DNA from: Cliona cf. orientalis
Taxonomy: Eukaryota; Porifera; Demospongiae; Clionaida; Clionaidae
NCBI GenBank assembly: GCA_963930775.1
Contig: OZ005691.1
Coordinates: 4,394,500 to 4,458,499, forward strand
Direction of reading: 5' to 3'
Length of the DNA stretch: 64,000 bases
Of this stretch, positions 14,254-40,425 are shown in pieces; position 1 is the stretch's first letter; the number at the start of each line of letters is the position of its first letter. A program made the translations under genes and the position numbers. The notes beneath the pieces are model-generated. The model was not told the DNA's origin and ran no database searches. It was given only the letters and a program-made list of their open reading frames with translations.

Positions 14254-14289
14254 TGTTGCTAGGAAACGATTGGTAAATTAGGTAATAAA

Positions 14290-18306: not shown

Positions 18307-19112
18307 CTACTTGGAGGCATAGATATAGGCTTCCACTGTCTCCCATAAGTGAGGAAACTTGCTACTGATTTCTTGCCGAGTAGCTAGTTGATTATCGGCA
18401 TAATCAAATCCAGGAGCCACGGCCTCGCTCATAAGAGAATAATGATTATCCATCATTGCTATAGCTCCCAGTTCAGATCCCGTGAGCATGTGTGCACACC
18501 TCCAGCAATCCCCCGGAATTAGTACTTCTGGCCTGAGAGGATGTCTGGACCAATTGAAGGGCTCAGAAGCAAAGTGGGCTAACCCCGAACTATATGTGGG
18601 GAATTGTCTAAAAAGCTCAAAAATGGACTAAAAACCATACATCGTACTCTACCAAGTTGCCAAAATTTTCAAAAAATTGAATTTTCTATAGCTCATGAAA
18701 CACATTTTAAACATGTTTTCAAGATTCGGGGGGGCTAAGTCAACGTTTGTGGGTTAGCCCACTTTGCTTCTGAGCCCTTCAATTGAGCCACTCCCTGCAA
18801 ACTTCTCCCGGATCACGTGAATTAATAATGAGGTACTCTACTGGGCAACCCTCATCATGGTGGTAATAGTGGATAATATCCAAGCAACTGAGGTTCATGC
18901 ACATAATGGGACTCTCCCTGGTCAGCAGGTAGTGGATGGAGGTCATGATGTGTCTTGTGAGTTCACTATTTGAATCGTTTGCTGATCGCGTCCCGCCCCG
19001 CGTTGTCTGTGATGGACATGTTCATCTTGGCTTCATAGGTTCGACAGTAGTAGCCTCCTTCACGATGAGGCTCCAACTTCAAGAGGTCTATAAGCTTTTG
19101 AGCATCCATCAT
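18307..19112 (-). pseudogene. Cupin_5 (DUF985) pseudogene split by a MITE
   Basis: This is the neighbour and paralogue of the intact gene at 19607-20176. The C-terminal part still reads SEAVAPGFDYADNQLATRQEI. The N-terminal part still shows the ATGATGGATGCT start (19112) and the stretches for LEPHREGG and MTSIYYLLTRE. A 235-bp MITE (18551-18785) interrupts the sequence for the central strand. A deletion of 7 bases relative to the intact copy shifts the frame just after the MITE, and a further gap lies near 18965. It cannot make the full cupin. Confidence 0.8.
18551..18785. mobile_element. MITE with 33-bp perfect terminal inverted repeats
   Basis: The first 33 bases (starting CAATTGAAGGGCTCAGAAGC) and the last 33 are exact inverted copies. 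A second, older member lies at 25270-25512. The interior conserves TCTAAAAAGCTCAAAAATGG in both. It sits inside the cupin pseudogene, where the intact paralogue reads GACCAAGCC... without it. Confidence 0.85.
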
Positions 19113-19606
19113 CCAACACACTCACCGAACTACTTAATTCATGTAGGGCTTCCTAGATTCCAGCTGCCTGGATCCACCGTCGACTATCATGATAATTATT
19201 ATATCAACACATACTAAGAAGTTCCTAAGGCCACACAGAATAAATTGTTTGTTTGAACTAACATGACCACGAAATAGTAGGGTCGGTCGGTCAGGCGGAT
19301 GATAATTTAACCAAAGAATAATATTTTAATTACAAGTGTCAGTGTTTCTACGTAAACTTGTAGTATTCTAGCTGTCTAGAGGTTTGTCCTGCGTGGTAGC
19401 TTAAAAATACATTTTTAAGACAGTCCTATTAAAAGTCTGAGTCAGTACATATGCCTGTAGTAAACTCAGCTATTGGATGCTTTAAATTTTACAGTCGGTC
19501 AGGTTAGTTTAAATAAACATTTAATTCTGGGTGGCCTAATGAATGTATATACTAATAAATTCACTAAAGAAGTCCATCACACTTTTAATGGTGCAGATAA
19601 TAACTA

Positions 19607-20176
19607 TTATTCGGACGTACAGACATAGGTTTTCAGTGTCTCCCACAGATCAGGAAATTTGCTACTGATTTCTTGTGGAGTAGCTAGTCGATTATCAGCA
19701 TAATCAAATCCAGGAGCAACGGCCTCGCTTGTCAGAGTATACCCACTACTGCTCGCTCCTTCCAAGTCAGTCAGCATGTGTCCACACCTCCACCTACCCC
19801 CTTGGATGAGCACTTGAAGCTTCTGCCCTGAGAGGATATCTGGACCAAGCCTCTCCCTGGAAACTTCTCCATTACATGGGTTAATAATGAGGTACTCTAC
19901 TGGGCAACCCAGATGGTAGTAGTAAATGATATCCGAGCGATTGAGGCTCATATGCAGAATGGGTTTCTCTCTAGTCATCAGGTAGTAAATGGAGGTCATG
20001 ATGTGTCTTCTGATTCCATCGTTTGGATCCGCATTTTCTGTGACATTTTCCGATCTCGTCTCCACGCCCTCTGTGATGCAAACGTTCATCTTGGATTCGT
20101 AGGTTCGACGAAAGTAGCCTCCTTCACGATGAGGCTCCAATTTCAAGAGTTCTATAATCTTCTGAGCATCCATCAT
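19607..20176 (-). CDS. Cupin_5 (DUF985) family protein, single exon
   Basis: This 189-residue protein fits the DUF985/Cupin_5 family, a small one-barrel cupin of unknown substrate found in bacteria, fungi and some animals. Visible family motifs, in order, are LEPHREGGYFRRTY (about 13-26), TSIYYLMTRE (about 61-70), SDIIYYYHLGCPVEYLI (about 81-97), IQGGRWRCGH (about 123-132) and SEAVAPGFDYADN (about 149-161). The His and Glu residues in these segments are the likely metal ligands. The start is the first of two tandem ATG codons. The reading frame is intact and intronless. A broken paralogue lies 500 bases downstream in the same orientation. The 5' flank runs into a large inverted-repeat element starting near 20223, which may supply promoter sequence. 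Confidence 0.85.
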   Translation of the reverse strand: MMDAQKIIELLKLEPHREGGYFRRTYESKMNVCITEGVETRSENVTENADPNDGIRRHIMTSIYYLMTREKPILHMSLNRSDIIYYYHLGCPVEYLIINPCNGEVSRERLGPDILSGQKLQVLIQGGRWRCGHMLTDLEGASSSGYTLTSEAVAPGFDYADNRLATPQEISSKFPDLWETLKTYVCTSE

Positions 20177-20390
20177 GGGTTAATCTCTTTTAAGCCTGCA
20201 TGAATTTCACATTGATAATTTATAAGAGTAAATGATCAGATTTTGGACACGAGGTTGATTCAGACACCTGTGCAGCCGATATGAAAGACTTGGGGGAGGT
20301 TTTGCATGGTTATGTAGTACAGTACCTTAGCCCGTATGAGGACTGTACCTCAGTAATGGCCATCGAAGTCCTGCCAGTATAGACCCATTG

Positions 20391-20402
20391 CACGTGACGT
20401 CA
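20391..20402. promoter_or_regulatory. overlapping E-box and CRE (CACGTGACGTCA)
   Basis: CACGTG (20391-20396) overlaps the perfect CRE palindrome TGACGTCA (20395-20402) in a GC-rich patch. About 50 bases downstream an ATG (20452) opens MAKIFRGCLCRS and reaches a consensus donor, AAG|GTAAGA, at 20499/20500. The next acceptor I can find (near 20637) leads to an early stop, so I do not call a gene. The site lies inside the inverted-repeat element. Confidence 0.4.
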
Positions 20403-21425
20403 CGGGGCGTGCGCAGTGGGCCGCCCTGGAGGACAACTGGAGCCGTTTTCTATGGCGAAAATATTCAGAGGCTGTCTTTGTCGCTCATTAGCAAAGAAGG
20501 TAAGAATCCGTTTTTCTCGTGGTTGCAGTATGTTTGACTAACCACAGTGTGCTTCGAAATATCATTTAGTTGGTGATCCAGCCACCACGGAGGTGATATA
20601 ATATTATTTCACACACTTTGTACCTTTTTACCAGTCAAATATGTTCTAAACTATCGAAAGTAGCAGTTTTAGGTTGTAAAAATCATTTAAATACCATTTC
20701 GAAAATTTTCACCGGCTGGAGCGTGGTGGCGCAGCGCCGTTCGCATGCTTCAGGGATCAAAGGTCAAACACGTCGTGTGAAGGGCAGCTGGAGTACTTCA
20801 CATAGGATTGCTAAAATTGACCTCAGATATCGACGTATGGCCTGTCCGACAAACAGTTAAAGAGTGTCCGACCTTCGATGAGTTCGGACAGCATGAATTC
20901 AAGCCTGCCACACCAGTACTAGCAGGACTTCGATGATCATCGGGCCGCATCAATTTAATTTCATATTGGATCCGCCAACTGTATTTTTGGAGATTTCCAA
21001 AATAAAAGCCACAATCACGTGACCACCATGCATGCTTGATCGAGCGACTATACCACTCCCACAGCAGTGTTCAGCTCTTTCAGTTTGACTTAATAGCAGT
21101 CCAAGTATCTGGTATCAGCAAAAGAGCTTCCCCCAGTCAGTGAAGGATTGCCACTTTTTGCCAAGATTCAGTATCCTGTGTGTACTGGTCCATAAACAAG
21201 CCCTAGAGCACAGCAAATGTTAAATTATGACATTCATGACTTTTTAATGAGATTCATAGGGTTTTTTTTTCTTTATTGCCTACCGACCGACCCTATCTGA
21301 GCCCCTCACCTGTCCAAGAAACATGAAATTAAGTAAGCATGGCCTTGCTGGAGCATAGTCCCCATACGGGCTAAGGTATGTAATCATGCTAAGACCACTC
21401 CCCCAAGTCTTTCATATTGGCTGTG

Positions 21426-21478
21426 TAGTCTGGGGTCAGCCCCTTCCTCCTCTCGTGAAGGGGCTGGCACCCAGACTA
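21426..21478. mobile_element. 53-bp hairpin insertion
   Basis: TAGTCTGGGGTCAGCCCCTTC pairs with GAAGGGGCTGGCACCCAGACTA (one asymmetric bulge) around an 8-base loop. The flanks TTGGCTGTG (21417-21425) and TCGGCTGTG (21479-21487) form a direct repeat with one difference. It interrupts the right arm of the 1.3-kb element, since the left arm reads continuously through the same place. Confidence 0.7.
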
Positions 21479-21699
21479 TCGGCTGTGCAGGTGTCCGAAA
21501 TCCGATCATTTACTCTACTCTTTAGGGATTTATTTATGGTTAGTTCATACCTTCGAAGGATCGCCATCTTTTCCAGAACACATGGACTCAAAATTAATTT
21601 AATATCAGATCATGCGCATTCCGATGACGTCACGGAACGAGCTCCATACGCATGCGCAATGGAGAACGCAATTTGGTACCTGGTGTGGCGTTGACAATC

Positions 21700-22800
21700 T
21701 CTGATCATGCATCTGATGCATACAAATGATTGTCAAATTATATCAACTTTGCATTCCTTAAAATTTATAATTTTAGAGGTGTAAGTGCTAAATTTAATGA
21801 ATATTACAAAAACTGTGGTTCTATAATTATATATAACTCAGTGTCATGCAGTAATAATCCTAAGCCTGGTGGACATATTATTATTATGCATGCATCAAGC
21901 TACTTTTTGTATATCCTAAAAATATAATAATCATAATAAATTAATAATATATAATAATAATATCCGATAGTGTATTATCTCTTAGGCTACTCATGTCAAC
22001 CTTAATTGTTGCTATAATATTAATTTGTTATGGGCAAAAAAATCTATAGACTACATGTAAGTATGATATATACTCATGGTCATACATGCATATATACCTG
22101 TAATTATTATCATAATATTATAATATAATATTATTATTATCATCCTTATACACAGATTCTGAAATGCTTAATGTTAATCATGCAAGGATAATATAATAAT
22201 TATTATATTATGTTTTTGATCATGACACATGCATACATAATAATATAAATAGACAACATGCAACACGCACAGTATGATAGCTCCAGGACCTGTGGCTTAT
22301 CTTATCATATATCCCACCTAAGTATACCTAAGTATGAACCCTTGACCACATCCCCAGTGGCTGCATAGTTCTAATGGTGCATGTGGTAAAGGTCGTCAAT
22401 ACACACATCGATGCTGGGGCCTCAATCGCAGAGATGGAGTCTAAGATCAACTTTCGACTTCGAGTTTCGATGCTTCAATCAAAGGAGATGAACTCGACAG
22501 CACAGTACAGCTTCCGAACTTCAAATCGGTCGTGGCATGACGCGTGCTATAAATAGCGCAAGGCTAGCTTTATTTATCCACAGGATTACGTCAGCCAAGA
22601 GAACGCGTAAAGTTCGGCCGGCATTACTTGTCGGAGAAAGTAGCACTCAGCTTTTAATGTATTCGCTGGATATCTATGTAAGTTAATATATGATTCTGTG
22701 GATTTTCAGGTCTCAGAAGTGTTCTGTAAAGTCTCTGAATTTTAGCGCTATGACGACATAGGTTACATCATAATTACAACATAATTACCTAATAACCGCA
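21700..22800. other. AT-rich intergenic DNA
   Basis: This is very AT-rich, with runs of ATA and AAT words (21930-22250) and no gene I can support. A possible TATA-like CTATAAATAG lies near 22549, in front of a less AT-rich stretch at 22560-22640, but no exon follows it convincingly. Confidence 0.5.
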
Positions 22801-22844
22801 AAAAAGTAAATTTATACTGGGGATGTAATGAACAACTTGGAGAC

Positions 22845-23255
22845 TACGTCCAGAGTCCCTCATGAATACGCCGCCACAAATTCGAACTAGGACACATCGA
22901 CAAACTGCGCATGCTCCGTATACGCGTACAATATCGGGGCGCGCGGCTTGAGCCGGTTGACCTTCACCTGCCACGTGTTCGACTGAATAGGGAAATCCCC
23001 CCGAGTGCGAGCTCGCCAAAGAAAGCGAACCGAGAAAATCGCCATATCTCATCGATAGTCCACGATGTCTTCTACGCTAGGTTCGAATTCTGGGTCCCAA
23101 CAACCTTTCATGCGCGCTAAACATTTTGAAACAGTTTCACAGGAATTACATCATAAGTTTCATCATAGGTTTCATCATCATTTCATCATCATTTCATCAT
23201 AATTTCATCATAGCGAGAGCCGAATTCTTTGTTTCTAATTGGGACTCTGGACGTA
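22845..23255. mobile_element. TACGTCCAGAGTCCC element, copy 1 of a tandem pair
   Basis: It begins TACGTCCAGAGTCCC and ends with the exact reverse complement GGGACTCTGGACGTA. The interior is GC-rich (GCGCATGC, GGGGCGCGCGGC) and then tapers into TTTCATCAT repeats. The next copy starts 17 bases later. Confidence 0.7.
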
Positions 23256-23272
23256 ATGAACAACTCAGAGAC

Positions 23273-23673
23273 TACGTCCAGAGTCCCTCACGAATACGCC
23301 GCCATAAATTCGAACTAGGACACATCGACAAACTGCGCATGCTCCGTATACGTGTACAATATTGGGGCGCGCGGCTTGAGCCGGTTGACCTTCACCCGCC
23401 ATGTGCTCGACTGAATAGGGAAATCCCCCTGCCCTGAAAGCGAGCTCGCTAGAGAAAGCGAACTGAGAGAAACGCCAAAAGGATATCATCGGATAGTCCA
23501 CGATCTCTTCTACGCTAGGTTCGAATTCTGGGCCCCAATAACCTTTCATGCGCGCTAAACATTTTGAAACAGTCTTAACCGCATTTACATCATCATTACT
23601 CATCATTACTCATAATAATTACCTCATCGGTCGGCCGATTTGTTTTTTTTTTCTAATTGGGACTCTGGACGTA
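23273..23673. mobile_element. TACGTCCAGAGTCCC element, copy 2 of a tandem pair
   Basis: It has the same 15-base inverted ends and about 90% of the same interior as copy 1. The 17-base sequences before each copy are almost the same (ATGAACAACTTGGAGAC and ATGAACAACTCAGAGAC). A minus-strand open frame (23265-23606) conserves GGFPYSVEH and YGACAVCRCVL between the copies. It matches nothing I recognise, and I treat it as element DNA. Confidence 0.7.
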
Positions 23674-25269
23674 ATAATTATATCAGCCGGGGTATAACTA
23701 GGATATTTTCCCTCCCTGAGGGGTACAAGGGAAAATATGATCCATATTTCCCTCCCTCTGGCTATGACCTTGACCAATCAGAGCCATTGTTTAGTTCACA
23801 CAAGCAGTCACATCATCATACCTACTATATGTGCGTGTGCATCAGCACAGTGCTACTTTTCATTGCACCATGGTTGCACACACACTATACTGTACATAGG
23901 CAGTAGACATTGTTTACATAGACACGGAAACACACGCACACTAATTGACACTAATCAGGAACCAATTAGCTATCACTCGATCTGGCAGTTCTACCACGTG
24001 GCAAGTTCAACTGCAAGTGAACTGTACTAGCTGCTAGTCCAAGTCTCAGTAGCCATTGTCCGAGTTTGTTGAACAGTGAAACTATTCTATTTGTTTTCGA
24101 AGCTAGCTACCTGACTGTCTTCTGTTCACGGAAAGCTGAAGCACTGATTGATTCAACTAGCCATGGTTCCGTGACTCAATTAAGCCATCCGTCATCGGTT
24201 GTTTCTTTGCTGGTTTGTTTTTACTGTGCAACTCTCTTTCTGTTCGGAACTATTGTTGCTAGGTTAGAACGGTTGTTGCTATGCATGTAGACTATGGTGC
24301 GCGTGACTTTTAGCCAATCAGGTGGGATATATAATAGTTATAGCACGGTTGCCAGGGATTTATGGCGACGTAAACCGCCCTTGTCCTCGGGCTACGCCCT
24401 CGGACTCGGGTCGGTTTACTGCCATAAATCCCTGGCCCCGTGCTATAACTAGCGATATCCAACCTCCAAATTTCACTGATTTTTCCGCGGATTATCTTTT
24501 AGTGGAATATCAATGTTCGAGTATCAGAAGGTAGCTCTCCACGAGCTCTATCCAACGGTGCTTGTAACGTGTCCGTAGATAAAACCGTTACGTAGCCACG
24601 CCCACCTAAACTTTCCTCATAGAAACTTAATACAAACAAAACCGAAGCTAGCAGCGGTTCCGCGGAACCGATTTGCACGGTTAAGGCGTCAGTAGATAGC
24701 TCATTCAGTGAGCTACCCAGCGCAGTTTTTCCCGTGAGTGTACTCCTAGCCAGAGCTGAGATATGTTCGATTTACTGGAGGCCCTTGGAGGTTGGATATC
24801 GCTACTATAACTATAACATAATTTTAAAAATCCAATCAGTATTGTACAGTATACAAGAACTAGCTAGCTAAATACACACGATTTTTGCAACTGTTACTGT
24901 CTTTATAATGGCTATAGCTAATGATTATTAAATTTTGTTCCGTATTAAATTTTGTTCCGTGTAATTCAGTACTTTTTGAAGCAACAATATTATAATCAGC
25001 AATAATTATAATAATGTAACCACTGTTATAACGGCAGCCACTGTTGCTATATATAGTAGCCACTTCCAGAGCTACTAGCCGAGAGGATAACAGCAAGGAT
25101 GCTGACGATGGTGATGATTTCAATGACATACCAAACAATGACTGCTATGTTGCAACCAAGAGCCATGGCATGTATCCACACTGTTTAGCACCAGTATAAT
25201 TGCCAGATCTATTATAATCTTGTGCCTGCATGAATCAGATCATGCATGAATATAATAATAAAAGATTTA
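23674..25269. other. intergenic DNA with nested fold-backs, no gene recognised
   Basis: An imperfect palindrome of TTTTCCCTCCCT and AAGGGAAAATAT words lies at 23700-23760. A compound fold-back occupies 24330-24815. The remaining open frames are short and unrecognised. Confidence 0.5.
24337..24449. repeat. 113-bp nested hairpin
   Basis: GTTATAGCACGG, GCCAGGGATTTATGGC and GTAAACCG on the left pair in order with CGGTTTAC, GCCATAAATCCCTGGC and CCGTGCTATAAC on the right, around a GC-rich loop that folds again. A second inverted pair of 17 bases (AGCGATATCCAACCTCC at 24451-24467, complement at 24787-24803) starts directly after it. The whole stretch 24330-24815 is therefore probably one compound element. 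Confidence 0.7.
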
Positions 25270-25512
25270 ATTGAAGGGTCGAGAACCAGAGTGGCCTAAC
25301 CCCAAATTGAATGTGGGAAATTGTCTAAAAAGCTCAAAAATGGACTAAAAACCAAATAATATAATATCCTACACAGTCTTCCAAATCACTCAATTTTTAA
25401 AAATGTGAATTTTCTGTTGCTCATGTAATGCATTTTAAACAGATTTTCAAGATTAGAGGGGCTAACTCAACATTTGTGGGTTAGGCCACTCTGATTCTTA
25501 TAACCCTTCAAT
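25270..25512. mobile_element. older copy of the TTGAAGGG MITE
   Basis: The left end reads ATTGAAGGGTCGAGAACCAG and the right end reads TTCTTATAACCCTTCAAT, with subterminal GTGGCCTAACCCC and GGGTTAGGCCAC. The interior matches the element at 18551-18785 (TCTAAAAAGCTCAAAAATGG) but carries many point differences. Confidence 0.75.
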
Positions 25513-25607
25513 CATAATCAAGCAGGATATAACAGTATCCATTTAAGATCCGGAATATTTTTTTTCCGGATTCTGTAAAAATTTACACTTTAATGAACCG
25601 AGGGTAG

Positions 25608-26080
25608 CTTAGGATCTAAGCCACCCTCGGCTTAGGATCTAAGCCAACCTCCGCTTAGCTTAGAATCTAAGCCAGTACCATCAGCTTAGGATCTAAGCCA
25701 CCCTCCGCTTAGGATCTAAGCCAACCTCCGCTTAGCTTAGAATCTAAGCCAGTGCCATCAGCTTAGGATCTAAGCCAACCTCCGCTTAGCTTAGCCAGTA
25801 CCATCAGCTTAGGATCTAAGCCACCCTCCGCTTAGGATCTAAGCCACTAGTATCAAAGACAACCTTGGTTTAGAATCTAAGCCAACCTCAGCTGCTTAGG
25901 ATCTAAGCCACTAATATCTATAAGACAACCTTGGCTTAGAATCTAAGCCAACCTCAGCTGCTTAGGATCTAAGCCACTAGTATCTAAGACAACCTCAGCT
26001 TAGGATCTAAGCCATTCTCAGCTTAGCATTTAAGCCAGTTCCATCAGCTTAGGGTCTAAGCCAGTCATGACTTGGGAATT
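25608..26080. repeat. minisatellite of TTAGGATCTAAGCCA units
   Basis: About 17 copies of a near-palindromic core, CTTAG(G/A)ATCTAAGCCA, are separated by short spacers of a few recurring kinds (CCCTCCG, ACCTCCG, GTACCATCAG, CTAGTATC). Higher-order blocks of two to three cores repeat. The array ends about 220 bases before the assembly gap. Confidence 0.85.
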
Positions 26081-26300
26081 ACAGCTGAGGATCTAAGTCA
26101 CCCCCAATGTTGGCACAATAGCTTGCCTTATAATTAAGCCACAAACTACTTGAGCATAACCACTAGCCTACTTGAGATACAAACCACGTGACGTGGTCAG
26201 CAGCTCATCACCAAGACCATTAATTAAAGTATGTACCTCAGTGTACCTGAGCACTATTGTTACATTGTATGCTGTTGACTTCTATGCAGGGATTTTTTTT

Positions 26301-26500
26301 NNNNNNNNNNNNNNNNNNNNNNNNNNNNNNNNNNNNNNNNNNNNNNNNNNNNNNNNNNNNNNNNNNNNNNNNNNNNNNNNNNNNNNNNNNNNNNNNNNNN
26401 NNNNNNNNNNNNNNNNNNNNNNNNNNNNNNNNNNNNNNNNNNNNNNNNNNNNNNNNNNNNNNNNNNNNNNNNNNNNNNNNNNNNNNNNNNNNNNNNNNNN
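26301..26500. other. assembly gap (200 N)
   Basis: A run of exactly 200 unknown bases is entered from a T homopolymer. The true length is unknown. Reading frames through it are meaningless. Confidence 1.
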
Positions 26501-28338
26501 GCATTATTCCACCATGCGGTCGCCCATATACTACTGTACAGCTGCCCAAACCGCATTCCAGAGCCAATTAAGGCGGTCTTAGCGTAGACTGTACTGTTGA
26601 TATTTGTAATTATTGCATTTGCCTGTGCTTGGATCCTTCGAAGTATTTAAATAATTTTGATTATAGCCAAATGAGACATCTCCATAGCTAAAGTGGAGAA
26701 GATATTCAGAAGAAGCAAAAGTGATTAGCTATCTGGATACTGTTCTCCATAATATTGAATAGCTATATATACAGCACAAGGTTTATGTATATAGCGTTTA
26801 GCATGTTTACTACTTTGTAAATCCCATTCCAGTAATGAATTTTGACACAAATGGCATGCACCCCATATGAGCTATGGTTTTACGCAGACTATGTTGGTAT
26901 GTCATCTGTTCCTGAACATTGATTAGCCAATAAATCAGTAGTCCTTATTGCAGATCCAGGAAGTGCATCTTGTGGCACTGCATGCAATTCTTGCAGAAAT
27001 AATAATTCATATTAGTAGCTATTCTCTCAGAGTTCCTAGGATTTAGTAATGGGGGTGTCAAGATTTCTAGGGGCTACCAGAATCCTTACACACAAGGGGA
27101 TTCCAAATATCCCAAGGGGTGCATAATATCCTAGAATGGGGGTGCCAAATTTCCTGGGATGCCAAATATACTGTGATACCGGCATTAAATTCGGCGCCAG
27201 CTCGCATGCATGCAAGGCTCACCCCCCGCATCCACTGCCCTAGCAGTACTAGTGTTTGAGCTAGCATGTTCAAGAATATTATAGATTTAAAGCTGACAGT
27301 ACTTTTTATGAATTTTATGTATGGCTATAATTATTGTGTAGTGTCACATGTCATGCAGCTATAATGTATGGCTATATTAGCTATTGTTGTGTGGTATCAC
27401 ATGTCATGCAGCTATAATAGTAATCAAAACAATATTTATGATGATAACAACATCGCTAGAGCTTGCACGTAGCTACCGTAACACATAATGATCAACCATC
27501 AACCTATTAGGAACCCCATGCACTTTGTGAATGCGGCTTCAGAATCTACAATAATGTATCCACTTACATGTAATTGAACCCCTTGAAATAATATGGTGTG
27601 CCATAAAGTGGACACTTGGCTTGGCTGAAAAGTACACCTCAGTATCCAATCACTTATACTGGATCCCAGATTTAATTTAGAGGGATTCCGCCATAGAAAG
27701 CAGCCATAGCGGCATAGCGGCATAGCACAATGTCGTGGCTTTACTACATGTAGGTACATGCATGAGATGGATAGGCATGACTGATCAAAATGACAATCTC
27801 TATGTAGCATTCATGATCCTTATCGAGAGCTTTGAAGAAAATAGTCACTTTTTGCCATCTTAAAATTAATGTCTTGATAGCACTGGCCACTCATGCACTT
27901 AGATACCTAGCTGTCAAGACCTGGAGGTTTTGTGCCTACGATTGACAATGATGACAACATAATGCAACACTGTATACCATAGTAATGTGCATTGTACTTG
28001 TACTGAATTCTAATTGATGTCCTATACTGCCAACACATGCATAGTAGTAGTCATCATAAGCTAGCTAGGCATGCATGAGCAGGCAATGACGCATGCATAC
28101 ATCTGGTATTATATGGTCTTGTGTGATGATAGTACTCGATGCCATGCCTTATTATGGGCTTGGTATTCATAATTCAAAATCATTGTAGCAACGTAACACT
28201 GTACCTGCATGAATAGCCATTGTCACTTTGAAAAGCTGTGTACAGTTATATAATAATATTATGTAGCTACTTTAGGTTATATATATCTCAGACTGAGCTG
28301 CTTCTCTTTTTTAGAATTAGTGCACCAGGAGTAACAAC
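26501..28338. other. intergenic DNA, upstream of the NLR gene
   Basis: The part at about 26680-27260 is a diverged copy of 34490-36020. It shares AGAAGCAAAAGTGA, GAGCTATGGTTTTACGCAGACTATG and ATTGCAGATCCAG, followed by GGGGTGTCAAGATTTCTAGG-type words. The rest is AT-rich with no gene. A pyrimidine tract and AG at about 28300-28314 or 28320 could be a splice acceptor for a 5' leader exon of the NLR gene. Confidence 0.5.
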
Positions 28339-31300
28339 ATGGAGAAATTCATTACCAGCATTAAAAAGAAGTACAGAGAGCGACTCTTAGTTCATGAAAG
28401 ACAGTGGCCTCTACGCCATTCAAGTAAAATAATTAGCTTTTCGCTAGTAAACAGAAAAATAGGTGAGGGTTACTATGGCAACCAGCAAAGGGGCAAGGCT
28501 GTTGAGGAGACAAAGCGAAGTTTGTTAGATTATAGCAAGCTCTTTGAGGTGGAGGATGGACAAAAGCCAGTTAGGAAGGTCCTTGTCGAAGGTGACGCTG
28601 GGATAGGCAAGACATCCTTTTGCTTGTCAGTGATTGAGGATTGGGCAAATGGGAAAATCTTTCATGAATTCAAGTTAGTCTTGTTCTTGCCGCTACGGCA
28701 TAGAATAGTTAGTTCAGCTGGCTCACTACTTCAGCTACTCGAATTGCTACACCCCAGTAAAGAGGTTTGTACATCAGTAGCTCACTTTTTGGAAAAGGAG
28801 GAAGGAGAGAAAGTGCTTATTATTGCTGATGGCTGGGATGAGCTTGATAAATCTAGACGACATAAAGGGTCTTTCTTATGTACACTACTTTTTGAAGGTC
28901 TTCTTCCTTTTGCTTTCGTTATATTGACCTCACGTTCTTCTGCCTCTAGCTCACTTCACCAGTTTGATCGATGTGTTGAGATTCATGGTTTCAGTAAAAT
29001 TAGTAGTCAAGATTACATCCTATCTGAATTTGCTGATGATCGGGATAAAGCAAGACGACTATTGAAGCAGATTAGTATTATACCATTTCTTGAGAGTATA
29101 TGCAGTGTTCCCCTCAACTGTGCTATCCTATGCCACTTGTGGCGCACACGTGAGGAGGCTCTTCCTGCTACCATGACAGATTTGCATACGAAGGTTATCT
29201 TGAACATAATTCTTCGTAACTTACAGAAAAGTGAGGCGTACGAGAGCATAAAAAGTTTAGCTAACTTTGATGCTTTGCCCAATGATTTAGTTGAACCTTT
29301 TAAGCTTTTGTGTGAGTTTGCTTACCGTACAATGGAAGAAGATCAAATTATCTTCTCTAGGGAAAAGTTGACCACCTTTTTTCCTCAGGGATTAGCTTTG
29401 GATGAAAAGATTCTTTGCTTTGGCTTGCTACAGTCAGCTGAACCTATTCTTGAAACTGGCTATGGAGTATCTTTTCATTTTCTTCATCAAGTCTTCCAAG
29501 AGTATCTTGCTGCCCTACACATTGTGAAACAACCATATGATAAACAGTTGGAAATCATTGAGCTTAAGCCAGATGAAGATGTGAAACCATTACTCATAGT
29601 CATGAAAAACATGTTGAATAGGTCTTTGCGTTTTGGCCCAGTCTGGAGATTTTTCTGTGGCATTTACTTTCATGAGGCTACGGTGGATCCGAAAATACAA
29701 CAGCCAAATGTTGAACACCTTACAGAGTCTCTAATAACCACGTTCAAGGATACACTAATATTCCTTGATGGATGGTTGCAGCTTTGCTTCTTAGCCTTCG
29801 AAGCTAGAAACAAGTTAGTAAGTCAGAAAGTGATTCAAGCTATACATGGATCTTGCCAGGAATTCACACGTCTTGAGCGAGACAAAACACTTAAGTCTGC
29901 CATAGCAGTACTTAACAAACCATTTCATCCCTATGATTCTGCCATAGCTTTAAACAATCTCTTCCAGATAACTGCACCAATTCCAATGGTACTTGGAAGA
30001 CCACATCTTTCTGCTTATGATTGTGCTGCTATTGTCTTTGTTATCTCCAGCATTCAGGAAAAGAATAATATTATTCCTCTAAGGCTTGATTTTAGTTGGT
30101 CTGGTATTGGTGACGATTCAATCAGAGCATTAACTGATACACTAGTCAGTAAAAGTGGAACAGTGAAAATCCAGATGCTAATATTAAATGGCAATAAATT
30201 AGCTGACAAGGTCATAAGTGATCTCTTCAGTCGAGCTTCAGCTGCTTTTGATTCACTTCAAGTGCTTGAAGTTAGTAATAACAAGATAGGAACTGAAACT
30301 TTAATGTCTATTACTGCCCCAAAGGAAAAACACTCTTTCGGAACACTATCTACGTTAGATCTATCTAACAATCGCCTTTCAGTTTCTGGTATCCAGGCAT
30401 TAGGCAAAGCAGCCAAGTGTCATACATTCGATCATCTTGATGAGCTTAATCTAGAAGGATCACTTAGTATTGATAATGCCAAAATCAATGATGACCTCTT
30501 AAATATCTTTGCATCTTGTTGCTTTTGCCTCCTTGAGGTTAACATTTCACATAATGCTGTTGGTGTATCCGGAGCAGTAGCCCTAGGTAGGATCGTATCT
30601 AAGAGCAATCGTTTAATACCTATGCTTTACCCTGGCCTCATGAAAGAAACAATGGGACATAAATTTTGTAGTAAAGTACCACAGTTTAGGATTACTTTGA
30701 ACGAGACAAACCTTGGCGATTCTGGTTTGATAACTTTCATTGAGACATTAAGAGCAGATCAATTGCAAATCATGATCAGTTTCTGTTTTTATACATTGGA
30801 CTTGAAAGGTAATTGCATCCATAATACTGGAATTTTATGCTTGATCGAAGCTATGCACTCAAAGATGATAATTTTGGCAAATGAACTGTATGAATTCAAT
30901 TTTGGTAACAATCCATTCGGCACCTGTGGAACTCGTACCATTGGTGAAATGCTCAGCAATAGTCGCTATGAATTTACAGGTCTCAATTTATCTCACTGCC
31001 AGCTAACAAATGTTGAAGTTATTCCTCCAAGCGGTGAATCTAGATCTGATAGGAATGTGATAGGTGTGCAAGAGGTAGGACAGCTGCTTTGTCAATTGCC
31101 TCAAACGGACATCCTTTTTGACTTAACTCTGGATGGCAACAACTTCACAGGGGAGGGCATTTATGTTTTGGCTGGATTCATGCACTTGTGTCCATCCTTG
31201 AGCTGGCTAAGCTGTATTAACTGTCGTATCACTTCTGAAGACCTTCTACTGCTGTTTAACGTAGTTTTTGGCAAGAATTCACCAGATAATCGGTGTCCAT

Positions 31301-32552
31301 GTAGAGAGCTGGCCGGGTGGCGCCTGGATCGCAATAAAATCGATGACGGAGGCTTTTCTGCTTTAATGGAGCGCCTACCATCACAATTTCCTAAACTAGG
31401 CTATGGTCGTTTCTTTAATAAGATCTTTGTGTTTGATGGAAATCCAGTGAGTCCTGAATTAGCTAGAGTGATGAATAACGAAATGGAAAGACGTCATCAG
31501 GTAAGATATGGATTGTACTAATCTTATTATTGCCGTATAATTTATTATTATGCTGTGGTTACAGGAGGATCTTGCTATAGCTAGATCTAGTACAGTTAAT
31601 CGAGTACAGCAACCTAAAGTGGTATGATTATTTCTCCTTATTTGTTGCCAAAATTATCTCTGTTGATTTTTCACAGGAGAATGCTGATCATCAGTCATCC
31701 TCAACAAATATTGTTCAATTGACAGATGACGTTAAAATTTTAGCTCCTTCCACCCCTCCATGTTCAATGGCTGATTTGGCTCAAATAAAATATTATGTAC
31801 CAAAAGGTATCTTTGTAACAGTTTCAGAATTAGCTGTAGCTTTAGTGTGATCAATGTATTCATTATGCACAGCTAAACCCTCTACTGGCTCACCAGACTG
31901 TGCTTCACGACATGAGGATACTTCTAAAAGTTCTAGGCCAAGTACCCTATCTTCAGCCGATGATAAAGAAAGTACTGCAATAGTACCACCACGTGAGAAT
32001 ACTTTTGAAAGTTCTAGACCTAGCACCCTATCTTCAGCCGACAATAAAGACTGTATTGCAAAAACACCACCTTGTAAGAATGCTTCTGAAAGTTCTACTA
32101 GTAGCCCTAACACCTTATCTTCAGCCGATAATAAAGATAAAGTAAGCCTCAATAGCATTGTTGCCAATGATTGATTGAGATGGTGCTTTGTTAATTGTCA
32201 TTATTATAGTATTATATTATTGTTATTATGTCATCGTGTGTGTGTGTGTGTGTCTATGTAGGTTGAAGAAGCTTCTCGCCTTCTCACAGTTGATGACTTA
32301 GCAGCTGTCCAGAGAGCAGTGTGGGAGGCACGATCTAAGTGGTACAATATTGGTTTAGAATTGGGTCTAACAGTTGGAACTCTGGATGCCATTAAGAAGT
32401 CCAACCATTGCGATGTTGACGACTGTTTCAGAGCAACTCTAATAGAGTGGATGAGGAACTCTAAACTCAAGCCAACCTTGAGCAGTCTGGCTGATGCCCT
32501 CAAATCACCTACTGTGGGACTACCTCATCTAGCGGAAGACATTGAGCTGTAA
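28339..32552 (+). CDS. NLR-type receptor: NACHT, LRR, linker, C-terminal DEATH domain
   Basis: Five exons join in frame: 28339-31500, 31565-31621, 31677-31806, 31873-32141 and 32262-32552. They have GT..AG introns of 55-120 bases and give 1302 residues. The large first exon carries the NACHT ATPase. Walker A is GDAGIGKT (85-92), Walker B is VLIIADGWDELD (159-170), a sensor-type ILTSRS is at 195-200, and the winged-helix end is FHFLHQVFQEYLAALHI (379-395). From about residue 583 onward come RNase-inhibitor-type leucine-rich repeats. Exon 4 encodes a Ser/Thr/Pro-rich linker with three copies of a RPSTLSSAD-like repeat. Exon 5 is a DEATH domain with LTVDDLAAV, SKWYNIGLELGL, DDCFRATLIEWM, LSSLADALKSP and VGLPHLAEDIE. 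Sponge NLRs described so far place DEATH or CARD at the N terminus, so this order is reversed. An in-frame TAG lies 21 bases before the ATG. It supports this start unless the second of two AG acceptors (just after that TAG) joins an unseen upstream exon. The likely role is intracellular sensing of microbes or damage, with DEATH-mediated assembly. Confidence 0.85.
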
Positions 32553-32725: not shown

Positions 32726-33890
32726 TCACTTCTTTCTTTCTAAGATTTGTACAGTGTCCCCCACTCTGACCTTCCCTGTCCACTGGAGGGGGATCATCAG
32801 CTGGCCAAATTTGGCATGCAGGGGTCCTTTAGGAGCTCGGTAAGTTCGTAGAACGTCCAGTGGTCCTACTTTGTCCACCTCTCCAGTTTCTTGATCCACA
32901 CCAGTCATCTTGCAACGCTATGAGATGATATTATAGTTAAAGGGTTAAAGGCAGCGCATAGTGAATGGAACATTCAAAATGTACAACGTCATAATTATGA
33001 TAATATTATGGTAATAGGGTAACTCTATAACAAAGGCTTATGGAGTAGGCCTACGATCTATGACTCTCAAACACCCTTTTAGGCATAATATAAATTACTA
33101 TGATATGATGTGTATAAATTATTCGTACCTCAGAGTCCCTGTAGATGAGGAAGGGGACTTCCCCTACACGCACTTTCACCCACTCGTCCTCCTCGTAAGG
33201 TCTGGAGCATCCTGCTATCTCAATGTTCATCCGAAATCGATTCAACGGCACCTCGTATGCACCGCTCTCTGCCATTCTGGTGTTCAGATCTTCCAGTGAC
33301 TCCTGAGACATCAGTGACACGGGTGCTGAGTCAGCAAGACCGACCTCCACACTAGTCTCATGCCCAGTGCCTTCCACGCTAGACTGAGGTACATTTAGTC
33401 TGTTCTTTACACCAGACGGTAAGTTCCAAATCTCTCTCTCGTATGTTTCACCCTCTCTACTCGTCTCTGCACTTGCCACCAGCCTGTTATTGGTAGATTG
33501 GCAGCCCAGTAGCTCATTGAACCACTTTGCCGGAACCTCTCCTTGATCTATCACTCTGATGTGACTGTCCCAGACCGTAGCGTCAATTCGAGGTCCTTCC
33601 AAAATCGGTTCAAATTTCAAGTCCCAGGTCATGCTGGGAGCTCTGGCGCGGAGGTAACGCTTTCCCTTCTCCATCTCGAAGTTGGCAGTTACTGTAGCCA
33701 TGATGGGTGCCTGGCGTTGAGCGAGGAGGCGTCCGTTTCCGTTTATCATCATGAACCTACGGTCGCCAGCGACTCCATAAGCGTCGAACTCTATCTCTGT
33801 CTTTCGTATGGCCTTACAGGACTTGATGGGGAAGACGTTCAGCCCTGTCACTCTGGGAGGGTCCACGTTCGAGTCCATCCGCCTCAACAT
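32726..33890 (-). CDS. mARC-like MOSC-domain molybdoenzyme, paralogue A
   Basis: Two exons (33890-33129 and 32917-32726, phase 0) give 317 residues. The N-terminal half is the MOSC beta-barrel domain: PRVTGLNVFPIKSCKAI (about 13-29), followed by GVAGDRRFMMIN. The second part is the MOSC domain with LNRFRMNIEIAGCSRPYEED and, at the start of exon 2, RCKMTGVDQETGEVD, LRTYRAPKG and GKVRVGDTV. Cys256 in RCKMT corresponds to the molybdenum-ligating cysteine of mARC proteins. Such enzymes reduce N-hydroxylated compounds with electrons from cytochrome b5. The N-terminal membrane/targeting segment of vertebrate mARC is not visible here, so location is uncertain. It converges on the NLR gene with 173 bases between stops. 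Two paralogues follow upstream. Confidence 0.85.
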
Positions 33891-33900
33891 TATTGTTGAA

Positions 33901-36123
33901 GTCTAGAGAATTGATGACAGTATTCTAAAGCTTACGAAGTGTCTTTCTTGTCCTACTTGACTCCTCTGGCTTGCTGGAGGTCGAGACCACACAACGATAC
34001 GTCCAAATATACAGGAAGACAGTTGATATCAATAACATGTGTCTCGGCTTTCTTCAACTCTCCGCGCCTTTTTCATGTTTTTGACCAATGACATGATATG
34101 ATGCATGTGCACAGCCCCACCCCTTTTTATGAAATTGGGTGTGGCTCAGTTACAGTACGGTGTCACAGTAATTTTGACATTCCCCCTTTATGGTACCCCC
34201 GTACGTGGAATAATTTGCTCCCCATGCCGCATACCCTCGGTATCCCCAATGGTACCCCTTAGGAAATATTGAATCCCCTTCACGCGCATAGCGCTGATCA
34301 CTGGCAATGCAGGTTGAGCTTAGGGGAAGAGACTAGGTTGAGCTCGAGGTTAATGAGGAAAAAAAAAATCTAGCTATCCTGTGCTTTCTGACACCTCAAA
34401 GGACAAAAGAGGGTGAAGTAGGAGTACCGGTAGTTCCTCCTCATCTCATGGTGCATGTCCCATAATGAGATAACATCTCCTTAGTTACCTGTCTAAAGCG
34501 GAGAAGACTTTCAACTTTCTCGAAGAAGCAAAAGTGACTGTCTGGATACAGTCGTCATTTCCCATGATATTGAAATAGCTATTACCGTGGCCCTGAGGTG
34601 TCCTAAACCACTTAGACCTCTTAAGTCATTCAGACCTAAGAAGTGCCCATGCTAAGACATGATGCTAAGCGATTCACACTCTCTGCTAAGCGATTCGATC
34701 TTAAGAAGTACCAGTATTCTCTGATCCACGATTATGCTAAGCGATTAATTAAATTGCTCTAACGTGTGGTGCTCTATGCTAAGAAGCACCTCTGCTAAGC
34801 GATTAATTTCTAAGAAGTAGCAGTGCTAAGAAGTTGCCGCTAATATGAATAAGACAGCGTCCCTATAACTTGCGCATGCGCAATCAAGTGAGCGCGGCGT
34901 GGTTTGAACTTTGACCTATTCTTTAGAGGACTGGCACGACTCTGAACTTTTGTCTGGTATTCCCGTGAAACAACCATTGCAGTTGAAGTGGCCTAAATCA
35001 TAAATCCATTTACAGACAGGATCTAGATCCAAAACATTGCGCAGGTTCAAGGTTCATGTAACGTTGGGCGTGCAAATGCGTGCGGACGCATACGCGCATG
35101 TACATGTAGGCATGGGCATGTGCGCAGAGCATAATTTAGCTCAATCGCTTAGCGGCTACTAATCAATCGCTTAGCATAGGTGCTTCTTAGCATAGAGCAC
35201 CACACGATGGAGCAACTTATTAATCGTTTAGCATAATCGTGGAGCAGAGAACACTGGTACTTCTTAAGATCGAATCACTTAGCAGAGGGTGTGAATCGCT
35301 TAGCATCATGTCTTAGCATGGGCACTTCTTAGGTCTGAATGACTTAAGAGGTCCACTTAGTTGGAGTGGCTTAGGACACCTCAGGGCCACCGTAAGCTAT
35401 AGCTACTACACCTGTCCCATATATATGTAGCTACATGCCTGTGATATATCGAGACAAAACAATTGAATGTGAACAATGTGAGCTATGGTTTTACGCAGAC
35501 TATGGTGGCATTCCTGAACATTGGTTAGCCGATAAGCCAGCAGTCCAATTATTGCAGATCCAGTCGTAATACTGCAATTTTTGCAAAAGCAATAATTCAT
35601 ATAATAATATAGTCTATATATAGCTAACCGTTATTCTCTCATTTTCTTGATAATAATAATTACACCCTGGTACCGGTACTTGTGTGTTGAAATTAATTAA
35701 TAATTGGTATGAGGTATATACCTATTGTAAGAATAATTGCCTACGGCTAGCCTGGGGTACCAAACGATTCCTAGTATGGGGGTGTCAAGATTTCTAGGAT
35801 ATTAATTTTGGTAGGGGGTACCAAAGTTCCTAGGAAATTTGGTATATATGGGGGTGTCAAAATTCCTAGGATATTATAATTTAAATTTGGTAAGGGGTAC
35901 CAGAATTCCTTACTCACAAGGGGGTTCCAAATATCCTAGGGGGGTGTATAAAAATTACTTGTATTTTATATGGAATGGGGGTGCAAAATTTCCTGGGATG
36001 CCAAATATACTATGTCACCGGGTAATAGATATGCATGCATGGTTCTGAACACCATTTAGATATTAAAAAATACTTCATTTGACAGAGTCTGAACATTATA
36101 AAAATTAAGAACGTGACAGGTTC
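33901..36123. other. intergenic DNA between mARC-like paralogues A and B
   Basis: No gene is recognised. It contains the second copy of the segment seen at 26680-27260 (here 34490-34583 and 35400-36020), split by an 800-bp fold-back element at about 34590-35396. GGGGTGTCAA and TTCCTAGGA words recur at 35780-36000. Confidence 0.55.
34590..35396. mobile_element. 800-bp fold-back element built from CTTAGC words
   Basis: The left end reads CGTGGCCCTGAGGTGTCC and the right end GGACACCTCAGGGCCACCG. Arms of about 240 bases are inverted copies and consist largely of TAAGCGATT, CTAAGAAGT and CTTAAG words (AATCGCTTAG, ACTTCTTAG on the right). The centre (about 34850-35130) is unique and includes TTGCGCATGCGCAA. 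It interrupts a segment that is uninterrupted in its copy at 26760-26800. Confidence 0.8.
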
Positions 36124-36503: not shown

Positions 36504-37580
36504 AGAGAGGGAGGGAGGGAGGGTGGGAAGGGGAGAGGGAGAGAGAGACTCAGAGAACATGTGTACATGTACCTACATGTACATGACTGGAGCATGCATT
36601 TGTGGTGAGGCTGAGGTCATACAAATGCTATAATGCTATAATGAGGGGAAACGTTACCATGCCAGCGGGCATGTGACTACTAATCTTGACTGTGTGTACT
36701 TAATATCTTTGATGTATAACTATAATGTGCCAACCAGATGCACACATGCAACCATTCCAAATGTACAATACATGTATCTTACATGTACATTCTCTGCTCA
36801 TTCAAGAAAATGGTCTGAGGCCGTACTGTACTTACTTACCTCCACATACGTATACACTAGAAAGGGGACCTCTCCAATGTGAACCAAGAACCAATCATCC
36901 TCCTCAAAGGCTCTGGAGCATCCCGCCACTTCAATGTTCATCCGAAATCTATTCAATGGCACCTCGTTCACTCCTCTCTCTCTCAGTCTGGCATTCAAAT
37001 CAGCCAGCGATTCGTGAGACGCAACGGTCACTGGTGCTACATCTGCCAGACAGACTTGCATAGGGGGGAGTTTATTTTTGAGGCTGGGGGGTATGGTTGG
37101 AACCAATCGCTGAAAGCTCTCCCCAGCACTAGGAATCTTCTCAGCACTAGCCACGAGTCTGTTGAACGTCGTCTCGAGTCCAATGAGTTGATTAAACCAT
37201 TTAGCTGGGATCTCCCCCTGATCAATCACCCTCACTTTCTCGTCGTAGCCGACGTAGGCGTCCACGCGAGGTCCCTCTAAGATTGGCTCGAATTTCAAGT
37301 CCCAGCTCATGCTCGGAGCACTGGCGCAGAGAAATCGTTTGCCATTTTCCACGACAAAACTAGCTGTGACCGTGGCCATTATGGGGTAGCCACTCCGCTG
37401 AGAGAGAAGGGCACCTTTACTGGTCATCATCATGAATCTTCGGTCACCGGCCACGCCAAACTCGTCGAACTCGATCTCCGTGACTTGGATAGACTTGCAT
37501 GACTTGATTGGGAATACATTGAGAGCAGTCACTCTGGGAGGGTCAACAGATGAGTCACTGCCAGCAGCCAGGGACGCCAT
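36124..37580 (-). CDS. mARC-like MOSC-domain molybdoenzyme, paralogue B
   Basis: Exons 37580-36840 and 36318-36124 (phase 0) give 311 residues. The layout matches paralogue A: PRVTALNVFPIKSCKSI, GVAGDRRFMMMTS, LNRFRMNIEVAGCSRAFEED, and exon 2 starting RCKMTGINQDTGEVD with the metal-binding cysteine at about residue 249. I chose the ATG of MASLAAGSDS. The codon for the longer frame is GTG, and an acceptor-like TTTACAG just upstream suggests a 5' leader exon. The 520-base intron contains a GA-rich microsatellite (36452-36547). The order and orientation, A-B-C all minus strand, indicate tandem duplication. The three proteins differ mainly in the middle of the MOSC domain, where substrate contacts would lie (inference). 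Confidence 0.85.
36452..36547. repeat. GA-rich microsatellite
   Basis: This is an impure run of GA, GGGA and GGGGG words, purine on the plus strand, in the intron of mARC-like paralogue B. Confidence 0.85.
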
Positions 37581-38019
37581 GACCGGGGGGTACACTGTAA
37601 ATCATAAATTATTTTATGGTTCAAAACCTGTATAATCAGTATCCTTGCACCCATGAGACTACATGCCTAAAAATATTAAATTGTGTAGCCTCTAATCAGG
37701 ATATAATAATTTACAGAGGGAGAGAGATATTTTGGGCATCTACTCTATAACTTACAAGATATATCCCGAGAGGTGAACGGTAGTCTAGCGGGCCAGCCAC
37801 CACCCTTCAGCTGATACATGTATGTATGGGTGGAGTTTGGCATGCAGAGAAGCTGTAAGGGGTGGGGCTTGTTCAGCGACCATTTCCATATCATAATATT
37901 AGATTTTCATGAGCTCGGGAGGGGTATACCATCAATACATGACACTGTATCATGCATGTACATGAATAAATATATAAAAATAATATTATGCTAGATTCAG
38001 ATAATTTGGTGGCATGAGT

Positions 38020-39215
38020 CTATTTCTTTCTCTCTATAATTTGAATAATATCTCCAACATGGACCTTGCCAGACTTCTGAAGGGGGATCAAATGTTGACC
38101 AAAATTGGCATGTGTGGGTCCCTGGGGGGCTCGGTACTTGCGTAGAATGTCAATGGGTCCAATCTTGTCCACCACTCCGGTCTCTTGGTTCACACTGGTC
38201 TGCTTACAACGCTGCAGGTGGAGGGATCAAGTGTAAAGGCAGTGGCAATCATCTCAAAACAGTTACTATACAATAATTGAAGTTGGTAAATGTTATTAAA
38301 GTATACTGTCTTCGTCCCCAGGTCCATTCCCAGCTTTTCAGTATATAATATCGAAAAAGCGAGGAATGGGCCTGGGGACGAGGCTAACTGATCATGATTT
38401 AATTTTAGTCTCGTGACATGATTAATTTTATATCCTCATCTATACACCATATCCCTTAGAAATCTAAGTAGTAAAGGGGGGACAAATTAAATGCTACTTA
38501 CCGCACAATACTCATAGACCAGGAAGGGAATGCCTCCGATGCGAATCTGTAGCCACTCATCCTCTTCAAAGGCCCGGGAGCAGCCAGCAATCTCAATGTT
38601 CATCCGAAATCGATCCAGACCAACTTCACTGACGCCATTCTGCGTCATCTTTTCGTTTAGATCACCCAGTGATTCCTGTGATACCAAAGACACTGGTGAT
38701 TCATTCGCCAGTCCAACTTGGATACCAGACACTCTATTCTCTAAATTCTTTGGAACGTTCTCAACAGATCTCCGATATTTTTCACCTATGCTGCTTCCAT
38801 CTGCACTCGCAACTAGACGAACCTTCCCACCGCAGTCTGGACCAATCAGCTCATTGCACCATCTTGCGGCCTCATCACCTTGATCGATCATTCGAACACT
38901 ACAGTCCCACAGATGTGTATCAATTCTTTGGCCCTCCGTGACAAGTTCAATTTTCAAATCCCAGCTCACACTTGGAGCACTCATGCAGAAGTATTCTCGG
39001 CCATTTTCGACTATATACTTTGAAACAACGGTGGTCATTACTCCAAAGCGCCGCTGGCTGAGGTAGCGATTGTTCTGGTCGATCATCATGAGCCGTCGAT
39101 CGCCAACCACTCCAAACTCGTCAAATTCAATCTCAGAGACTGAGAGAGCCTTACAGGACTTGATTGGGTAGATGTTGAGCTTAGATACTCGGGGAGGATC
39201 GACAGAGGACTCCAT
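38020..39215 (-). CDS. mARC-like MOSC-domain molybdoenzyme, paralogue C
   Basis: Exons 39215-38502 and 38211-38020 (phase 0) give 301 residues. Exon 2 is too interrupted by context to be seen as a long frame, but it translates cleanly from the acceptor: RCKQTSVNQETGVVD, LRKYRAPQGPTHANFGQ, GKVHVGDII, ending ERKK and a stop. Exon 1 shows PRVSKLNIYPIKSCKAL, GVVGDRRLMMID and LDRFRMNIEIAGCSRAFEED. The molybdenum-ligating cysteine is residue 240. As in A and B, the intron falls directly before the Arg-Cys pair. A hairpin repeat lies in the intron at 38310-38382. The intron position is ancestral to the three-gene array. Confidence 0.85.
38310..38382. repeat. 73-bp hairpin repeat
   Basis: CTTCGTCCCCAGGTCCATTCC pairs with GGAATGGGCCTGGGGACGAGG, and CTTTT pairs with AAAAG inside, around an AT-rich loop. 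It lies in the intron of mARC-like paralogue C. Confidence 0.75.
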
Positions 39216-40425
39216 TGTAGATGACTAGTGTACAGAATTGACTACTGTAACAATTGCTGAGCCATTCAAGAATTTTGCTGCACTGTAAAAGCAGATGATG
39301 AAATATCATCAAGTTATTATGCAACAATTTATTACAACAGGATATTGTATGTGGTAATGAATGATCAATGGCATAGCCAGGGGTGGGTCTCAACATTGGT
39401 AACTACGTGTATACAACATGCACATGATCCCTTGAGCAAATCATATCTGATTGAATTCAAAAAGAGCCATGATTTAGTGGCCTATTGCAGAGTCCCGTAC
39501 AATAATAATATGCTCCCTTAACTCCCTAGCGTGAATGTAAAGTAAACACTATCTTCCCCTCCAAACAATAATATTAACTCCCCCACCCTTGAAGTACTAC
39601 ATGTAAAATGGAAACAGTCACTTAATAGAGGGGAGCACTATATGACAGCATTTTCAACATGGTGTTTAACATAGCATGGGAATTCAGGAATGATAAAGAA
39701 TAGCCAAGTACAGTACATACACGGCAAACAATGGGAATGCACTCACCGTGCTATATATAGACTGTCATTTAATACCACATGCCCATTCTGTGGCCAATAC
39801 AAGTTTAACATACATACATACTCTATTCAGAGCATCTATTGACAACAATAGACAGTCACTGAGTCACTCAACTAAACAGTGAGTACCAGTTACTGAGTAG
39901 TACGTTTAGCCAGCAACCTTTGAGTTGGCATTCAGAGTCAATACTCAAGTCAGGCTTATGGTATCTGAAAAGGTCAGCCAGTTATTCTTGGAATAAATTA
40001 TTGATTAGCATATAAAGTACCTCTCCTAAGCTATATTGCAGTACTAAAATAATTTATATAAAAGTCATGGTTTTGTGATCACAACTTGATCAACACAGAG
40101 AAACAATTCAGGTAGGTCTCATTGTCTCACTACTGATTTCATGATAATTTTACGCGATGACACAATAGATCTAATTATCGATTCCCGTTTAGAGAAACGT
40201 ACAAACTTACAAGGAAGAGGAGTTGCAGGGGCTAGGACTGTACTTGTGGGTTGGTGCCTCGCCTCGGGCCCTTCTTCACAACTACAAAGGATCGGAGAAC
40301 CGGATATCGTGAAATGCGGTTTCAATCAAATCACGGATATTAATCACTTTAAAAATTTTGGATCTAACCGTGTAAAATTTCAACAGCCAATCATCGGCTA
40401 ACCGTACAAAATTTATTTGGGCAGG
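39216..40425. other. intergenic DNA and probable Rab promoter
   Basis: No gene is recognised. An 86-residue plus-strand open frame (40141-40401) has an ordinary composition but no homology I know and no partner exon. The final 300 bases are less AT-rich and must contain the promoter of the Rab gene. No TATA box is obvious. Confidence 0.45.

Follow-up and report, generated by a model that had tools for sequence, protein, structure and literature searches.

The window analysed here is a stretch of 64,000 nucleotides from the sponge Cliona cf. orientalis (contig OZ005691.1, C3:4394500-4458499 in our numbering of contigs), and the genome assembly to which it belongs (216.8 Mb in 149 contigs) was searched for relatives of the gene described below. 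On the forward strand, at positions 28339 to 32552, the window contains a predicted gene for a nucleotide-binding, leucine-rich repeat (LRR) receptor (NLR) with the domain order NACHT-LRR-linker-DEATH. When joined by script, its five exons yield one continuous reading frame of 1302 residues plus the stop codon, just as the preliminary description of this sequence had proposed. The introns are of the GT-AG type, measure 64, 55, 66 and 120 bp and interrupt the frame in phases 0, 0, 1 and 0. Exon 1 (28339-31500) is a single open frame that begins with the ATG and encodes residues 1-1054, comprising a NACHT NTPase domain (28576-29037, residues 80-233; Pfam PF05729, 4.3e-21, 75.9 bits), a winged-helix/HD2-like region (NLRC4_HD2, 0.0025, below cut-off) and an LRR region (30346-31443, approximately residues 670-1035, its end placed by eye), in which Pfam recognizes LRR_6 (1.7e-11) and LRR_1 at residues 670-749. 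What we take to be the Walker A, Walker B and TSR motifs lie at residues 85, 159 and 197, and the nearest solved structures to the exon 1 product are NLRP3 and NLRP6. With NACHT and LRRs combined in one product, the gene encodes what is commonly understood as a bona fide NLR. Exons 2 (31565-31621), 3 (31677-31806) and 4 (31873-32141) encode a linker in which 56 of 152 residues are serine, threonine or proline, exon 4 being the part noted as rich in them. By eye, an SSRPSTLSSAD(D/N)K-like repeat also occurs about three times in exon 4, and its copy number seems to vary among paralogues. Exon 5 (32262-32552) encodes the C-terminal DEATH domain, residues 1207-1302, and the stop codon.

The identity of this last domain is supported by two kinds of comparison. 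Exon 5 alone matches Pfam Death (PF00531) with an E-value of 3.8e-6 and 27.4 bits, above the cut-off of 22.6, and a 26-row profile built from exon 5 and its relatives finds the death domains of FADD (8.5e-9) and PIDD (7.4e-8) among solved structures. A Pfam search of the 1302-residue product at E≤0.1 recovered NACHT, LRR and Death; no FIIND (ZU5/UPA), no CARD or other signalling domain besides Death and no Roc/COR match were found.

Among the matches listed, the closest relatives of exon 5 are 89% and 76% identical, and both follow same-strand paralogous NACHT-LRR genes, which we refer to as L002 and L001. L002, about 230 kb from the window, has the same domain order and the same introns, and all eight GT/AG dinucleotides as well as the frame are kept. 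Its exons of 3183, 60, 181, 248 and 291 nt compare with 3162, 57, 130, 269 and 291 nt in the window, exon 3 being 51 nt longer and exon 4 21 nt shorter. The differences are all multiples of three, whereas the introns differ by other amounts. L001 (C3:4178000-4187999) likewise keeps the domain order and the splice sites of exons 2 and 3. Its last intron is expanded, and its exon 1 is split by a transposon-like insert of about 0.68 kb that has terminal inverted repeats beside TA and contains stops in every part seen. Because of these two changes, this NLR copy is probably disabled, as far as can be judged from its sequence. A distant but complete case, L003 on contig C16, encodes 1383 residues in frame and has a single 69-bp intron between its LRR and DEATH exons. 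In L004 on contig C19, one frame runs from the LRRs through the linker into DEATH, and the NACHT lies in a frame different from that of the LRRs.

These copies bear directly on the question whether the window holds one gene or two. An ordinary NACHT-LRR gene beside a small DEATH gene would be conceivable inasmuch as exon 1, unspliced, is by itself a near-complete NACHT-LRR frame. We consider this arrangement highly unlikely, since L002 preserves splice sites, frame and order with exon but not intron lengths changing in threes, since the DEATH domain of L003 sits only one short intron behind the LRR frame, and since the same arrangement recurs in further members of the family (L021 gene 1 and L025, see below). 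A chance juxtaposition, or a DEATH exon that belongs to a neighbouring gene, is likewise rejected in view of the kept splice sites, frame and order in L002 and of L003.

At the other end of the protein, an upstream exon adding an N-terminal DEATH or CARD would have changed the picture drawn in the preliminary description, and such an exon was searched for. A splice acceptor AG (28313-28314) precedes the ATG and is followed by an in-frame TAG (28318-28320); both are common to the window gene, L001 and L002. An exon spliced to this acceptor would therefore add only 5' untranslated region and no N-terminal domain. No Pfam match at E≤1 was obtained for the three forward frames of 24001-28338 read through stops, and queries with local DEATH domains found no convincing DEATH on the forward strand of 14001-28338, i.e., 14.3 kb (best window E 0.11), or in the 5.1 kb upstream of L002. 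The sole DEATH upstream of L001 is the C-terminal exon of L002 itself. Upstream of L004 there is a weak match (hidden Markov model E 0.016, 10.2 bits). A death fold could nevertheless have escaped these searches, which would make the window gene double-ended like L025: the acceptor just before the ATG is conserved, N-terminal DEATH domains are spliced in frame to the same place in L025 and L021 gene 2, and a gap of 200 N lies upstream of the window gene at 26301-26500. Given that each of the three close copies has the stop codon behind this acceptor, and that no convincing DEATH was found in the upstream regions searched, such a hidden domain is hardly probable. As far as the upstream sequence tells, the gene thus appears to have no N-terminal death fold.

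This matters for its classification. In the available text of a study on Dysidea avara, sponge NLRs are classed by their N-terminal domain, NLRX standing for NACHT-LRR and NLRD for DEATH-NACHT-LRR (PMC12909245), and a metazoan survey, in its accessible part, likewise classes by the N-terminal domain (PMC11508797). The window gene lacks the N-terminal DEATH of an NLRD and has the composition of an NLRX, with the C-terminal DEATH as an extra to that definition. It resembles the sponge NLRX/NLRD receptors in the combination of NACHT with LRRs, in its many clustered paralogues and in the use of DEATH domains, as far as these are described for D. avara (PMC12909245), but differs in that their classes are set by the N-terminal domain, while its own DEATH is C-terminal.

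We then placed the window gene within its receptor clade. A genome search with exon 1 gave 470 candidates, 44 of which were scored as loci for the position of DEATH domains among the matches listed for five DEATH query types, each list reaching to 150 scored candidates or to the E-value limit. A DEATH was called N-type within 4.5 kb and C-type within 4.8 kb on the same strand with no listed gene between, so that the labels "both", "N" and "C" describe position. The weak matches at C16:5583714 and C11:7205849 (38-40% identity), together with many low-identity matches elsewhere, were left out of these counts. At least 19 of the 44 loci have a C-type DEATH 0.5-4.8 kb behind the LRRs: seven carry DEATH at both ends and twelve, including the window gene, L001 and L002, at the C end only. 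The reading frame was checked for the window gene, L002, L003, L021 gene 1 (C end), L021 gene 2 (N end) and L025 (both ends); for L004 it was checked from LRR to DEATH only, and L022, L023, L024 and L026 were placed without the frame script. L021 gene 1, on contig C8, reads NACHT-LRR-linker-DEATH in frame up to a stop codon, while in L021 gene 2 a two-exon N-terminal DEATH joins the NACHT in frame. L025, also on C8, combines both in a single in-frame model of 1217 residues, DEATH-NACHT-LRR-linker-DEATH, with one GC-AG intron. The GC donor, in place of GT, is that of the second N-terminal DEATH exon (1883-1884 in reverse strand coordinates) when read in the only frame that fits. Since its relatives carry DEATH at both ends, at the C end or at the N end, the window gene is, as predicted from these loci, one of several C-only members and not a lone reversed receptor. 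As a separate observation, NACHT matches on contig C14 (approximately 4.7-8.1 Mb) and at C8:2776948 and C8:2816269 lie in very long open frames of up to 3702 residues, some of which on C14 apparently hold two NACHT domains, e.g., C14:5415115 and C14:5417281.

Two pairs of paralogues reveal that the terminal exon does not share the history of the receptor in front of it. On C8, the two loci L024 and L025 are identical at 771 of 897 positions in NACHT-LRR (86%; 83.5% by BLASTP) and at 53 of 63 positions in the linker exon (84%), but only at 26 of 92 in DEATH (28%). Their homology at the DNA level stops at position 6898 of L025, 8 bp before the DEATH exon starts at 6906. The opposite holds for L021 gene 1 and L022, with 519 of 868 identical positions in NACHT-LRR (60%; 53.3% by BLASTP) and 93 of 100 in DEATH. 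On account of these opposed identities and the stop of homology near the exon border, the terminal DEATH exon is, judged from the alignments, exchanged or replaced independently of the receptor. A hint of the same may be present in the window gene itself. Compared with L002, synonymous divergence amounts to 0.218 in exon 1 and to 0.061 in the DEATH exon, where 4 of about 68 synonymous sites are changed (binomial P 0.002, Fisher P 0.0045). This could fit a recent exchange or conversion of the exon, and other causes are possible.

After L002, L001 and L003, the window DEATH has its next relatives in exons that are 51-59% identical, and some of these belong to genes whose frames are of the P-loop, Roc or COR-like type. 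The DEATH exons of four such Roc-COR-like (ROCO) genes, L005, L012, L019 and L020, share 53-59% of their residues with that of the window. L005, L019 and L020 were scanned with Pfam: COR-A scored above cut-off only in L019 and just under it in L020, and L005 gave only sub-threshold matches to Ras and Roc; at other loci the label follows the look of the open frame. Many of the best 150 matches to the window-type DEATH exon form a large array on contig C8 at about 5.6-9.6 Mb, and the exons at the loci sampled from it mostly adjoin P-loop or Roc-COR-like frames. The terminal DEATH domains of the C8 and C10 loci of the receptor clade are of another kind, 23-27% identical to that of the window and with Pfam Death E-values of 8.1e-10 to 3.9e-9. 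An earlier DEATH tree, built on long rows, was poorly resolved. In the tree analysis, a single clade of the five window-type NLR DEATH domains was not rejected (P value of the approximately unbiased test, p-AU, 0.113), but they required two changes on the tree, and a single change was seen in 0% of 200 bootstrap trees; a single origin is thus unsupported.

The preliminary description had regarded the order of domains as reversed, against an N-terminal death fold as the norm in sponges and vertebrates. The order NACHT-LRR-linker-DEATH is real; a rearranged receptor is not supported. As the position of DEATH varies among relatives and the C-terminal exon is exchanged between paralogues, the domain is better viewed as a terminal module that was added or swapped. 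Nor does the vertebrate norm hold without exception. NLRP1, in the available text on this protein, is NACHT-LRR-FIIND-CARD and provides a vertebrate precedent for a signalling death fold at the C terminus (PMC7483925). Exon 5 of the window gene shares with NLRP1 a death fold C-terminal to the LRRs; the window protein differs in that it has no FIIND, DEATH instead of CARD, and no N-terminal PYD. The ROCO proteins of the same genome possess a related DEATH exon, also C-terminal, with Roc-COR where the window gene has NACHT-LRR. PIDD1 has the domain order LRR-ZU5-UPA-DEATH. It is similar in that LRRs are followed by a C-terminal DEATH and PIDD is among the nearest solved DEATH domains, but it has no NACHT, and the window protein has no ZU5/UPA. 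Plant NLRs are NB-ARC receptors. For one of these, RGA5, the accessible part of the literature describes a C-terminal domain after the LRRs, isoforms with and without that domain, and different domains in cereal orthologues (PMC9528084). The parallel lies in an extra domain behind the LRRs that differs among related receptors, while the integrated domains of plants are not death folds. Variation of an extra domain between close paralogues was found here in the pairs L024/L025 and L021/L022, not in the window gene itself. A literature search that left most subscription papers outside its scope found no NLR of the order NACHT-LRR-DEATH.

What, then, may the C-terminal DEATH do? We give about even chances to the reading that the window gene is an NLR with a last-exon DEATH on a flexible linker, a modular terminal slot that serves as an adaptor-recruiting output, and recruitment of adaptors is the likeliest role of the domain. 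If the gene is expressed as modelled, the LRRs or an associated protein would sense a ligand, whereupon the NACHT domain, whose motifs are intact, would swap its nucleotide and oligomerize. The linker may then allow the DEATH domains of adjacent subunits to cluster at the rim of the oligomer, and this cluster would recruit DEATH-containing adaptors or kinases via DEATH-DEATH contacts. A swap of the terminal exon would engage another adaptor with the sensor unchanged. In double-ended relatives, the two DEATH domains might act as input and output or restrain each other. Several observations weigh against this reading. The length of the linker is not conserved, about 50 residues (by eye) in L003 compared with 152 in the window. 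Within the whole protein, the Death match reaches 21.9 bits and thus falls slightly below the cut-off. For the DEATH exon, the ratio of nonsynonymous to synonymous substitution rates (dN/dS) is 0.93 between window and L002, 1.42 between window and L001 and 1.45 between L001 and L002, so that no purifying selection is shown among these three close copies. Among the matches listed, DEATH was found at the N end only in nine loci of the clade and at neither end in 16, which is not to be equated with its absence. AATAAA hexamers at 31784, 32043 and 32130 lie inside exons 3 and 4, and the unspliced frame of exon 1 stops 12 codons into intron 1, such that retention of this intron would give a protein ending after the LRRs.

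In a different scenario, which we regard as rather unlikely, the terminal DEATH would be a bait, i.e., an integrated sensor copy of a signalling DEATH that microbes might target; tampering with it would activate the receptor, and the signal would exit via another part of the protein or a partner NLR. The domain does stand at the sensor end, is exchanged among paralogues at an intron border and resembles the DEATH exons of Roc-COR-like genes, which form a large family. In L025, the output could be the N-terminal DEATH that this receptor retains, and RGA5 offers the plant parallel of a C-terminal domain after the LRRs, as far as described (PMC9528084). On the other side, the domains that are swapped are death folds, which usually signal, and the window gene has no other recognized output domain. 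The preliminary description had instead envisaged a signalling domain released from the LRR end. NLRP1, in the part of the source available, uses a C-terminal CARD that is freed after autoproteolysis, once the N-terminal part has been degraded (PMC7483925), and a DEATH cut off or freed in a similar manner would suit the location of the fold behind the LRRs and the long linker rich in serine, threonine and proline. However, release in NLRP1 depends on FIIND, and an NLRP1-like release is thus unsupported for the window product, in which Pfam recognizes neither ZU5/UPA nor another protease-like domain. The linker of L003, moreover, is short. We judge release to be improbable. Beyond the single gene, it is possible, and we propose it tentatively, that the clade has a cassette slot behind the LRRs, the last exon being exchanged so as to pair different DEATH domains with one and the same sensor. 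This would rewire the output or provide a swappable bait copied from Roc-COR-like genes, and the slot for C-terminal integrated domains in plant NLRs would have its counterpart in animals.

The window contains further genes around the NLR. Downstream and on the opposite strand, three MOSC_N/MOSC genes follow in a row (33054-33902, 36801-37601 and 38490-39224, reverse strand). Frames for eukaryotic-type carbonic anhydrases are located at 5276-6214 and 16466-17263 (forward strand) and a Cupin_5 frame at 19610-20179 (reverse strand). The region at about 34600-35400 is palindromic, with many GCTAAGCGATT-like words on both strands, and is by eye perhaps a foldback element.

For the biology of sponge NLRs, the position of the DEATH domain has a direct consequence. 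The NLRX/NLRD scheme would place the window gene in NLRX and miss its DEATH, and in surveys of sponge and other invertebrate NLRs, which sort them by the part preceding NACHT, it would be listed as a receptor without a signalling domain. If a signalling domain can stand behind the LRRs, or both there and at the N terminus, the receptors that are competent to signal are miscounted in such surveys. Exchange of the terminal exon behind a constant sensor would amount to a natural domain-swap experiment, and it raises the testable question whether a C-terminal death fold acts as an output, as a bait, or as a brake on an N-terminal one.

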